DNA from: Dichotomocladium elegans
Lineage: Eukaryota; Mucoromycota; Mucoromycetes; Mucorales; Lichtheimiaceae
Direction of reading: 5' to 3'
DNA length: 64,000 nt
Assembly: GCA_025716815.1 (NCBI GenBank)
Contig: JAIXMN010000016.1
Coordinates: 744,001-808,000, forward strand
In this document: positions 43,251 through 54,209 of the stretch, in pieces
How positions within the stretch are numbered: the stretch's first letter is position 1
Layout of the letters: every line of letters begins with the position of its first letter
Notes under the pieces: generated by a model
What the model was told of the DNA's origin: nothing
The model's database searches: none
Seen by the model: only the letters and a program-made list of their open reading frames with translations
Translations under genes and position numbers: made by a program

Positions 43251-45060
<1,810 letters not shown>

Positions 45061-45139: not shown

Positions 45140-46748
<1,609 letters not shown>

Positions 46749-47747: not shown

Positions 47748-50000
47748 ATGACACAAAGTTCGCCCAACCTGTGCAAGGACAGCAATGATGAAATGGTAAA
47801 CGATGAAACAACAGTGACCGCGAATCCGGTTCAGCCGATCGGTGAAATTGGCTGCATACAATGTCGAAAATCTGCCACATTCATGTGCTCATCGTGCGGT
47901 CTTTCTGGCCCGCGGTACTGTTCCGTTGAATGTCAAAAGATCGACTGGAAGCAGACGCATCACAAGGACTGCGAGGCAACCAAATTGGCTCGCCGGACTC
48001 GACTTGCTGAACGAGCACGGCGGCAAGGTATTCAGGGGGTGGGCATGAAAAGAAGAGATCAGAGCTCTAGTCGACCTTCAAATATGTACTGACCATACAC
48101 TCTCCCAAAAGAAGCCGAAGATGATACTGCGACTGCCGCAGACAATATACCCCTTGAAGATCTTAACAGCCAGCGAGGCATAAACGCGGGCCCAGCACCT
48201 GATGATGAAGGTCGAGTTGACATTGATGAAGACGGTGATTCCGAGGGCGACCTGAAATTCTACATGCAGCAGATATATTTTGTAATCAAACCTGTCGTTG
48301 CATGTATTATCCTCAGTATCTTCTGGGTCAAGGTGGCCTACGATGATACTAGTGACTATAGGTATGCATATTTATAACCATAAACAATGCTCAAGAGGAT
48401 TGGAAATGGAGAATGAAAAATCATTAACTGGTCCGCTATAATAGTCCGACCCGACCTGGCTATATAATAATATCAAGTAGCGATGACAACATGGCATCTT
48501 CCGACGGGAATAATGGCAATAGCGAAAGTCACTCTGGATTAGTAAACTCGCTGGCCAATGCGTTCATTATCATTGGGCAGATAATCGTGATCACTGTTGT
48601 GATTGTCTTCCTATTCCGTAAAGGCTGGATGAGGGTACTGGTTGGATTCTTTATGATGGTGGTCCTGCTGTTACTTGGATTCATGACATATCTCCTATTA
48701 CTGTGAGTTGGATGAGCTGATAAAAGGAAGGAACCCATACGTGGTGTATTAATATGTGCATATAGTAATTTGATCCAAGTGTTCGCCATCCCAATGGATT
48801 ATATCACTATGGTTTTTGCACTTTGGAATTTCACCGTGGTTGGCCTAGTTTCTATTTTCTGGAAGGGTCCACTTTGGCTCCAGCAAGCTTACCTGACAGT
48901 GATGAGTTCGTTGATGGTACATAAACCTATCAATCACGATGCAGCAGCGCCAATATGACTCCTGAGTTTTGTTATTTTCTCTTGTAGGCGTTTTCATTGA
49001 CTGGACTGGAGGAATGGACGACTTGGATCTTACTGGGCTTGTTGGCTGTCTGGGGTAAGTTTACGAAGTAACGATTTCCAGATACTCAACACAAGGGACC
49101 TTATCAAAGACCGATGTGTTTGAGAATAGATCTAATTGCGGTGCTTTGCCCCTTTGGTCCGCTGCGGCTGCTGATCGAAAGTTCACGGAAGCAGCAACGG
49201 GAAGTCCCTGCTTTATTATATTCTGTCAATGCAGTCTGGTTTATGATGGCTACAAGTGACGACGTATCGCAGGCCCCTAGTCACGTAGGACGGAAGCTGT
49301 CAACGGCAGGAGCTTCGGTTCAGAGCTCTTATACAGTTTCTACGGATTGCGAACCATCCACCTCGTCTATTGCCCCACTGAATACGTATGCAGTCACTCC
49401 TGCAACAAGCGCCACTACATCTACTGCGCGTGAGGATCATTTGAATGCAGAATTCACTCTCGTACAAACCCAGCGCCGCAACTCAAACTGCACCACTCTT
49501 GCCTCCACAAACGATCCTGGGCGGGTACCGGGAGCTACAGAAACGGAAGACACGACCGTCGCGGAGGCAGGCGACTCTAGCCAAGACGAGGAAGACGGTA
49601 TGTTATGGTTACGAGTGGTAACGGCTCCAGCAGTGAGATTCCTGACGAGCAAGAGAAAATAGTCGAGCGAAGTGGGCTCAAATTAGGTCTTGGCGATTTT
49701 GTATTTTACAGTGTCCTCATTGCAAGAGCAGGTACAAGAAGGCGGCAGGGAAGGATTTACCCGAAGGTTAATGCTAACTGAAACTCATAAGCGTTGTATG
49801 ACTGGATTACTACCGTGTGCTGCACAATTGCGGTCCTCATGGGCCTGACCGCGACTATCTTTCTTTTGGCCATTTATAAAAAAGCTCTCCCTGCCCTTCC
49901 GATATCAATTGCATTTGGCATCCTCTTTTACTTTGTAGCAAAAACTGTGCTTGTACCCTATGTTGGAGCACTCTGCGCCTTCGGCCTGGTAGGCTTTTAG
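47748..50000 (+). CDS. Presenilin-type aspartyl intramembrane protease with N-terminal MYND zinc finger
   Basis: Model: eight exons, 47748-48027, 48112-48361, 48445-48702, 48766-48916, 48988-49054, 49130-49597, 49663-49731, 49792-50000 (583 aa), all phases consistent. The MYND finger is at residues 36-75 with all eight ligands: C36, C39, C47, C50, C58, C62, H71, C75. An acidic linker (95-142) leads into TM1 (about 147-168). Presenilin signatures follow: MDYITMVFALWNFTVVGLVSIFWKGPLWLQQAYL, LAVWDLIAVLCPFGPLRLL (catalytic D336, with W in place of the usual Y), LKLGLGDFVFYSVL (catalytic D503) and KALPALPIS (PAL, 548-550). The TM6-TM7 loop (about 380-490) is Ser/Thr-rich and longer than in human PSEN1. 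Presenilin is the protease subunit of gamma-secretase in endomembranes. The 84-nt intron joining MYND to presenilin has GTATTC..AAAAG and a TACTGAC branch 22 nt from the acceptor; the branch contains the only intervening in-frame stop. The presenilin part has no plausible ATG of its own before TM1 except M145. Confidence 0.88.
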
Positions 50001-50880: not shown

Positions 50881-52927
50881 TCCATTGATCTGCTGCTGCT
50901 GGTGTCGCCAGGTACGCATCTGGATAGCCTTTTGGAATTGAATGTTGATGGCGGACTAAAGGATATGGAGGAGATTGCATTATCTGTTGTCTAGAAATCA
51001 TTGGCAAGTTCGATGGAATCAATACAAGATTTACCACGTCTTGTCGTCAGTGTTCGGCTGTGGCTTACTGAACGAAACATCCGAGAGGCTTCAATATATG
51101 GATCCTACATCTTCCATCAATTTGAAATTTTTATTGTTTTTTTTTCCCACAAGGAGCGGGATACCTTGTATTTGTTCCGAGTGAGATCCTCACATAATAG
51201 GTTGCCAACTACCGTTTTATTCTAGATAGCTTCTACAGAGATAGATGGTTGTCCTTCTGATTTGCACATCTCCGCGTAGGCGCGGAGATGTGCCTGGTTA
51301 GAAAATTTTTTTTTACATGACAGCCACAAACATTGAGACGTTACATCCGGAAAAACCTTGTCTTTTTTCGGACATCCTCAACTGGCTGAAACACGAAGTA
51401 GCTAGGACATCTACTTCTAAATCACATCTCACAGAACCTCGGTTATAACACTATATGACCATCCATTTGAACTATGATATTATTTACCGGGATATCTCTG
51501 ACAGAGAATTTCCACGATACGTGAATGTGCGTGTGCGCATGTCTGTTTGTATTTAAGTACAGTTGACTTTGGATATCGCGCTTTAAACAACCCACAACTT
51601 GAGTAGAGGTTTGTGCCTGAATCGCTTTGCCGATTTATTTTGCGATTTGAACTCCTTATTGCCTTTGATGACAGCTCTCATAATGAGATTGGTGAATTAC
51701 GATAATGAACCACAATATACGCAAACCAATGGATCCTGCTGAGGCAATCTTCCATATTAAAAATAATATTGAAAACGAAAACAAATAATCTATGCGGTGA
51801 AAAGAGTCACTGCATGCTGACTTGCTCGAATAATTTTTACTATTCCCATCGTCTACTTGGGGCAAATATCCCGTATACTTGTTGCGGAGTTTTAAGTCCC
51901 GCTCCGTGAATCAAGCCGAGCGTGACTGGACGAACGATGAATTACATAGCATCAGTTAGTCCCGACTAATGGTTTTAATTCGTGTTGGAAGCTTCATCAA
52001 GCTTTAGCAGTGTACGCTCATATCTAATCCTAGCGATTCTTGCAGCCTCGACATCATTGCCATGAATTACGAACTATGTCAGAACTATGCCCTTCACCAT
52101 TACTGCATTGTTCCGAAATTAAGAGCATCAATGTCTTGTAAACCTAGAAAGTTTGCCCGTTATTTTCAATCACCGCGTGCAATAGGTCCCATCGCTAGCC
52201 CGTTGGGGGGGGGTGTAATGGAGCAGGATGGCTGTGAAAACGAGAAAACGCCCTAAATACTGTAGGCATCATGTCCATCTTCTGATTAAAACTTATCAAT
52301 GCATCTTTTTCCTGGGAGATGGCATGATTCTCCGACAACACCCCTACCTTTTCGCTTCGATCACTAGCGTTGTACCTTACAGTATTCATAGTCGCGAGTG
52401 CGGGGAAGTAGGTTGACATCACATCTGCTCAAAAGATCAATATCCAATTCTATCGTATGACTATGTAGAGGAATCCAAGTTATATGTTTTTCAACAGCTA
52501 CAGAGTGGAAGAGGCTGAGCAGCCTAATCTCCATATTGCATTTGTCGTGTATCAGGACCACGCAACATGACCAGATGTTTATCGTCCAGCCAAGTTGGGA
52601 CCTCTTGGTGTATGTTTTCTTTATTACGAAATCCATCAGACTGGTGCTTATTCAGGGTTCCTTAGCCTAGGAAAGTCAGTAGACAGCCCTGACGAGTAGT
52701 TTTGATGTTCCAGCGCGAGGTCTCCTTACTATGTAGATGATACCAAGCGAATGCGAGCAAGCAGGTTACTGAATCGGCGGGGGGGGTGAAGGATGAGTAA
52801 TCTTTTGTAATCGGAGAAATATTTGTTGCTCCGCACCGAAGAAGCAGTCATCTTTTTTTCTGGATATAAAGGCACCCACCTTCCATAAAAAAATTTTTCT
52901 TTACAGAGTGGAACCTCTTTTAGAAAG
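50881..52927. other. Gene-poor interval upstream of threonine aldolase
   Basis: No gene recognised on either strand. ORFs up to 90 codons (52364-52636, minus) lack motifs. Contains the perfect hairpin at 51264-51293. Confidence 0.4.
51264..51293. repeat. Perfect 13-bp inverted repeat with 4-nt loop
   Basis: Left arm GCACATCTCCGCG (51264-51276), loop TAGG, right arm CGCGGAGATGTGC (51281-51293). No mismatches; GC-rich in an AT-rich neighbourhood. Confidence 0.95.
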
Positions 52928-54209
52928 ATGATGACCTTTACAGGCAAGACCCTCAGACTCACTTCGCGCACGTTCCTTGTCCGGCGTCAACCTTTTTCAA
53001 GCACCGTTGCTTCAAGACTGTACATCCAGAACAATTTGCACAATGACCAAACCCATCCGGCCATCCAGGGCGAGGGGAAGTTCTATGACTTCCGCAGCGA
53101 TACGGTGACCGCTCCCACGGATGAGATGTTTGAGGTCATGAAGAATGCTTCCAGGGGCGATGATGTCTTTGAGGTAAGAGCTTACATAAGATTCACCATT
53201 GTTTATGCTCTTATTTGCTCAACCATACCACAAACTCTAACAGGAAGACCGCAGCACTCGCGAGCTGGAGGAGTACGTGGCCGACCTCTGTGGCCATGAA
53301 GCCGGGCTTTTCTGTACCAGCGGGACGCTCACTAACCAGCTTGGCCTGCGGACGCATCTAAACAACCCTCCGCATTCGGTGGTCTGTGACGCTCGGTCGC
53401 ACGTTCATCTCTGGGAAGCGGGTGGCATTGCATTCCATTCGCGTGCTTCTGTAAGCCCGGTCATCTGCTCAAATGGCGTCCATGTTACGGCCGAGGAGAT
53501 TGAGGGTAACCTTATTGAGGCCGATATCCACACGGCGCCCACCCGTGTTGTATCTTTGGAAAACACGCTCTCGGGCATGATCTTGCCTTTGGACGAAATC
53601 CGCAAGATCTCCGATCTAGCAAGAAGCCGCGGCCTTGCAATGCACCTCGACGGTGCTCGTCTGTGGAATGCCCACATGGCGACGGGTGTTCCGCTCAAGG
53701 ATTATGGTGCCCAGTTTGATAGCATGTCTCTTTGTCTGTCCAAAGGTGTCGGTGCTCCCATAGGTTCCATTTTGGTCGGCTCGCGCGACTTTATAAAGCG
53801 AGCACGCCATTTCCGCAAGCTCTTCGGTGGCGGTTGGCGCCAAGTCGGTGGTATCGCTGCAGCAGCAAAATATTGCATCGACACTATTGTCCCCACGATG
53901 CCCGAGACGCACAAGTTGACTCGATATCTCGCTGACCACCTGGTCCAGATGGGTGTTGATCTCCAGTGTCCTGTTCATACTAACATGGTGCTCATTGACA
54001 CCAAGAACGTTAATGTCGACATCCAACAAGATCTCGCGCCCATTCTCCTCCAGAAGAACATCAAGATCGGTGGTTTCAGAAACAAGTCCCGGATAGTTTT
54101 ACATCATCAAATTGACAAGGCTGCTGTTGATACCCTTATTGAAGGTGTTCGTGAAGCCATTCAGGCCCGAGCTCAGTCTGAGCCTATCGCTGCTTCTGGG
54201 TCAGCCTAG
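52928..54209 (+). CDS. GLY1: Low-specificity L-threonine aldolase (PLP-dependent)
   Basis: Model: exons 52928-53173 and 53244-54209 (403 aa). Fold type I PLP enzyme: FYDFRSDTVTAPTDEMFEVM, GDDVFEEDRSTRELEEYVADL, CTSGTLTNQLGLRTHL, DARSHVHLWEAGGIAFHS, LENTLSGMILPLDEI, MHLDGARLWNA and the Schiff-base lysine K249 in SLCLSKGVGAPIGS, followed by FGGGWRQVGGIAAAA. It cleaves threonine or allo-threonine to glycine and acetaldehyde. The first 40 residues are rich in Arg, Ser and Thr and almost free of acidic residues (TLRLTSRTFLVRRQPFSS), which looks like a mitochondrial presequence, unlike the cytosolic yeast enzyme. An alternative start at Met2 is possible. Confidence 0.93.

Follow-up and report, generated by a model that had tools for sequence, protein, structure and literature searches.

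Gamma-secretase has been studied mostly via Notch and APP, and how substrates are selected is still an open question. The N-terminus of human presenilin is cytosolic. MYND fingers have been described in nuclear or chromatin proteins such as AML1-ETO (CBFA2T1), DEAF-1 and BS69/ZMYND11, where three non-zinc residues (Tyr, Gln and Trp) are important for binding (PMC4742278). In BS69, binding was largely lost upon mutation of Q546 and W550. In PMC2770060, a loss of gamma-secretase was inferred from four such genomes for the ancestor of fungi and microsporidia. The main text of PMC10406608, which deals with the gamma-secretase of early-diverging fungi, does not contain the word MYND. Here we describe a gene of Dichotomocladium elegans in which a MYND finger precedes an intramembrane protease, namely a complete presenilin. 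The gene lies in a stretch of 64,000 nucleotides of contig JAIXMN010000016.1 (positions 744,001 to 808,000), referred to below as the window, and all coordinates are those of the window. We searched the literature for presenilin and gamma-secretase, either in a fungal context or combined with MYND. Among the papers listed, with subscription journals thinly covered, none described the pairing, and those mentioning both terms seem unrelated, judged by title and opening of the abstract. The MYND-presenilin is visible in database domain tables, though apparently undescribed in the literature searched.

Eight spliced exons on the forward strand (47,748-50,000) encode a product of 583 residues which agrees in every letter with the database entry P0001, a Presenilin-domain-containing protein of D. 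elegans. The ATG is located at 47,748, and the same open frame holds no earlier in-frame ATG. Exon 1 (47,748-48,027) comprises the start codon, the N-terminal tail, the MYND finger and most of a predicted basic helix, and exon 2 (48,112-48,361) encodes the linker and the first membrane helix. Both are separated by a phase-1 intron of 84 nucleotides (48,028-48,111) with imperfect, weak splice sites (donor GTATTC, acceptor AAAAG). Reading through this intron meets a single in-frame stop, the TGA at 48,090, which is part of the branch-site-like sequence TACTGAC (48,087-48,093). A model in which exon 3 began at 48,478 (572 residues) was discarded, as a start at 48,445 gives the 583 residues of P0001. 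A preliminary description of the window had already proposed a fusion by splicing, the position and phase of this intron, its single stop within TACTGAC and the length of 583 residues, and all four agree with the corrected gene model. We regard the MYND-presenilin fusion as confirmed at the level of sequence, and a single splice-joined protein is predicted.

If intron 1 were retained, translation would end at the TGA and yield a predicted soluble finger-only protein of 114 residues. The finger could then be mainly a separate short protein, with splicing setting the ratio of the two forms, and a short in-frame intron with a single stop and imperfect splice sites would suit such a scheme. However, the annotated form is the fused one, and the finger accompanies the presenilin across groups. 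Moreover, two related proteins from short 'lgn' contigs have reading frames which cross both parts: P0012 (557 residues; longest contig 3,180) contains finger and presenilin, and P0115 (624 residues; longest contig 6,877) combines a variant finger with the presenilin in one frame. We suspect these contigs to be transcript assemblies; if so, they would attest directly to splicing in relatives. Taken together, a mainly separate finger protein appears improbable.

The eight-ligand finger and the complete presenilin which the preliminary description had read from the letters were both recovered by profile searches. The finger matches zf-MYND (Pfam PF01753) at residues 36-75 (47,853-47,972) and scores 31.6 bits within the open frame 47,748-48,089 and 28.1 bits within the whole protein, compared to a cut-off of 22.7, and a genome-wide search found it at the same place. 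All eight C4-C2HC zinc ligands are present (C36, C39, C47, C50, C58, C62, H71 and C75), and the Tyr-Gln-Trp triad of the peptide groove is retained as Y57, Q63 and W67. This triad is kept in 8 of the 15 alignable MYND fingers of the D. elegans genome, which has 17 MYND loci in total. The D. elegans finger shares ligands and triad with AML1-ETO, DEAF-1 and BS69 as well as the fold, the latter being a model on the D. elegans side. In contrast, the DEAF-1 contacts M512, E514 and T516, as given in PMC3555993, are not kept. In the AlphaFold model (mean pLDDT 67.5, pTM 0.56) the finger blocks reach 88-96 whereas residues 368-488 stay below 50; after the finger the model shows a helix at 76-99, then a loose linker and finally nine helices which we counted as membrane helices.

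PF01080 covers residues 142-572, encoded by exons 2-8, over its full profile (1-408 of 408) with 407 bits, compared to a cut-off of 34.3. Exon 3 (48,445-48,702; placed by identity with P0001) and exon 4 (48,766-48,916) are followed by exon 5 (48,988-49,054), whose final base opens the codon of the catalytic D336. Exon 6 (49,130-49,597) completes this codon and encodes the loop connecting helix 6 to helix 7, exon 7 (49,663-49,731) the GLGD motif with the catalytic D503 (codon 49,695-49,697), and exon 8 (49,792-50,000) the PAL motif (residues 548-550; 49,890-49,898), the last helices and the stop. The first aspartate lies in WD, in contrast to YD in the human enzyme. An alignment with human PSEN1 (human presenilin-1 and presenilin-2 structures: PDB 5a63, 8oqz, 7y5x) opens only at fungal residue 118, and the fungal finger therefore has no aligned counterpart in PSEN1. 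In NCBIfam only archaeal PSH matches were obtained, weak and below cut-off, for two of three proteins tested. The related GxGD protease family of signal peptide peptidases (PF04258) is represented by one place in the genome, a separate gene, and unlike it the fusion protein matches PF01080 across the whole profile.

The D. elegans genome contains one presenilin place. APH-1, PEN-2 and nicastrin were likewise each located at a single place, over their curated cut-offs. Therefore, D. elegans likely encodes a full gamma-secretase, of which this presenilin would likely be the catalytic subunit.

The author of the preliminary description knew of no presenilin with a MYND finger, which proved too narrow a view. 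At E 1e-3, two homology searches gave 354 and 414 proteins, and the best 120 of each amounted to 135 distinct proteins. By pattern and hidden Markov model, a whole finger with eight ligands was found in 78 of them and a partial or variant finger in 16, while 41 had none. Thus, a finger lies ahead of the presenilin in 94 of the 135 listed proteins; this is not a census, since both queries bore the finger and finger-bearing proteins were favoured among the matches listed. The co-occurrence which the preliminary description suggested looking for in Mucoromycota was found there and beyond, namely in Mucorales, Umbelopsis, Calcarisporiella, Mortierellomycota, Glomeromycota and Basidiobolus as well as in Chytridiomycota, Blastocladiomycota, Syncephalis (partial finger) and the aphelid Amoeboaphelidium protococcarum. 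Species names are those of the search listings; phylum and order names are the ones we take to apply. The named proteins among the 120 best of each search included no animal, plant or nucleariid. As the same architecture occurs across early-diverging fungi and in one aphelid, the MYND-presenilin is, judged by these sequences, a lineage trait and no oddity of the D. elegans gene.

Among the 41 finger-less models, 12 begin at or beyond helix 1, and the remainder have fewer than 50 (9 models), 50-99 (12) or at least 100 (8) residues before it, compared to at least 64 in the 78 whole-finger models. Given these short N-termini, no judgement is possible for roughly half of the finger-less models, and some losses may be real. 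In the Gonapodya-Hyaloraphidium group the finger is absent from all three proteins, although a long N-terminus is present in the Gonapodya model alone, and a second aphelid, A. occidentale, also has no finger. Two finger-less proteins, P0023 (Parasitella) and P0027 (Umbelopsis vinacea), have close sisters with a finger, and their N-termini look as if the finger exon had been given a wrong start or read in a wrong frame. The models P0103 and P0104 of Batrachochytrium salamandrivorans (968 and 904 residues) carry repeat-family accessions, presumably armadillo/HEAT, before half a finger, and are possibly two genes fused by annotation. Between the position of the finger and helix 1, a conserved RGNxAQ[VI]IN-like peptide occurs in 16 of the 135 presenilins (including P0020, P0028, P0030, P0032, P0085 and P0092) from Glomeromycota, chytrids, Umbelopsis, Calcarisporiella and Syncephalis. 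At the same place 20 others have I[PAQ][LM]xDL[NS] instead, and these belong to Mucorales where named.

Conservation was analyzed in an alignment of 67 of the 94 finger-bearing proteins, obtained by a length filter and three exclusions, which left 89, and a redundancy cut at 80%. Both catalytic aspartates are invariant across the 67 sequences. The mean occupancy-weighted conservation is 2.74 bits per column in the finger, 2.93-3.10 in the membrane segments and 0.65-0.96 in the N-terminal tail and linkers, with the reservation that the conservation of the zinc ligands is partly due to selection, as the strict pattern demands them. In conservation the finger falls only slightly short of the membrane core, with flanks that drift on either side, which indicates constraint. 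This bears on the view that the finger no longer has a function and survives as an evolutionary relic. Its absence from some presenilins would fit a relic, but conservation close to that of the membrane core, next to drifting flanks, makes this view very improbable. Moreover, distances over the non-ligand columns of the finger correlate with those over the presenilin core (Mantel r 0.71 for 45 proteins; the highest of 2000 permutations gave 0.24), and when only the 824 between-group pairs were considered r was still 0.37. One could also argue that annotation has wrongly joined two adjacent genes, as the join rests on sequence prediction and the splice sites are weak. However, the same join is found in the 94 listed proteins from several phyla and annotation sources, and finger and presenilin diverge together. 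Based on this breadth and co-divergence an annotation artefact was rejected; we consider it hardly conceivable.

Similar evidence concerns the age of the fusion. For all 30 presenilin fingers tested, of which 28 belong to named groups outside Mucorales and Umbelopsis, the presenilin finger of D. elegans was the best match among the 17 MYND loci of its genome, with a small margin for some (e.g. 20.2 versus 19.3 bits). As the finger is conserved, diverges together with the presenilin and gives these matches throughout, one ancient, vertically inherited fusion is likely, and it is the simplest account. A presenilin-core tree was built by a quick method from 78 of the 135 proteins, hand-picked as one or a few per genus after exclusion of short and redundant models. 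It broadly tracks the fungal groups, with 26 of 75 inner branches being weak, and is unrooted as it contains no outgroup; therefore gain and loss are indistinguishable on it. The minimum number of finger-state changes is 17, and since several fall between near-identical sisters (Podila, Cladochytrium) truncated models are indicated. A region search for the closest non-presenilin relatives of the finger returned two Basidiobolus presenilins only and was uninformative.

What could the finger do? We favour, with moderate confidence, that this single protein, with its MYND finger before a complete presenilin and likely gamma-secretase catalytic subunit, uses the finger as a cytosolic docking module for proline-rich (PxLxP-like) peptides. 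The finger would be expected on the cytosolic face because the N-terminus of human presenilin is cytosolic. Binding of a proline-rich peptide is predicted because Y57, Q63 and W67 match the residues important in other MYND fingers, and the predicted fold is consistent with it. The docked peptide might be the tail of a substrate or an adaptor which is brought to the protease, and the finger would sit on the N-terminal fragment once presenilin has been cleaved, as is usual, in the loop joining helices 6 and 7. The cytosolic tether envisaged in the preliminary description hence stays plausible, as the triad is kept; no ligand was found on the presumed cytosolic parts of the other subunits, and none shared widely within presenilin itself.

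Candidate ligands were sought in the other subunits and in presenilin itself. No PxLxP or PPxL motif was found on the presumed cytosolic parts of APH-1, PEN-2 and nicastrin when the coding-strand frames (25 residues or longer) around the respective matches were scanned, the genes being unassembled. Just two hits came up, both PxLxP and neither a cytosolic candidate: one belongs to a frame that lies upstream of the PEN-2 match, and the other, in a nicastrin frame, precedes what was judged by eye to be the membrane helix. A ligand-type motif within presenilin itself occurs in only 10 of 57 aligned proteins, and it is common to relatives only in Mortierellomycota (three proteins, linker) and Phycomyces (two proteins, loop). 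In the Mortierellomycota proteins P0036, P0049 and P0054, P[RQ]LTP follows the finger in the linker and fits the PxLxP pattern; it could serve as a ligand for the finger, either in its own chain or in an adjacent one.

Such a same-chain ligand, together with the lack of an outside ligand in the motif scans of other subunits and presenilins and the predicted helix directly after the finger, would also suit a structural or regulatory part of the complex. Such a part would stabilise gamma-secretase, cause it to dimerise or fold back onto the linker or loop of its own chain, without recruiting outside proteins. Nevertheless, the peptide-gripping triad is kept throughout, the same-chain motifs are restricted to those 10 proteins, and the linkers on both sides of the finger are poorly conserved. 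We therefore consider a structural or regulatory part of this kind unlikely, though a more serious contender than a relic or a separate finger protein, and retain docking as the preferred function.

In the neighbourhood of the gene, a piece of a MOZ/SAS (MYST) acetyltransferase and a frame resembling a cytidylyltransferase, matched in two stretches, lie upstream (44,617-45,060 and 45,367-46,104). At 52,889-53,299 the start of a beta-eliminating-lyase-like gene was observed, which on this piece alone remains under the Pfam cut-off (25.5 versus 27 bits).

More tentatively, and with somewhat less than even confidence, the common ancestor of fungi and aphelids may have possessed a self-targeting gamma-secretase whose MYND finger chose substrates or adaptors by PxLxP-like tails. 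This principle, absent from the human enzyme, would have persisted from the origin of fungi onwards and disappeared in Dikarya together with the complex as a whole. The MYND-presenilin is a shared trait of early fungi that is absent from the descriptions in the papers searched. A conserved built-in docking finger would provide a genetic handle on substrate selection in fungi, and the finger might be used as bait for partners, perhaps substrates, of an ancient intramembrane protease.
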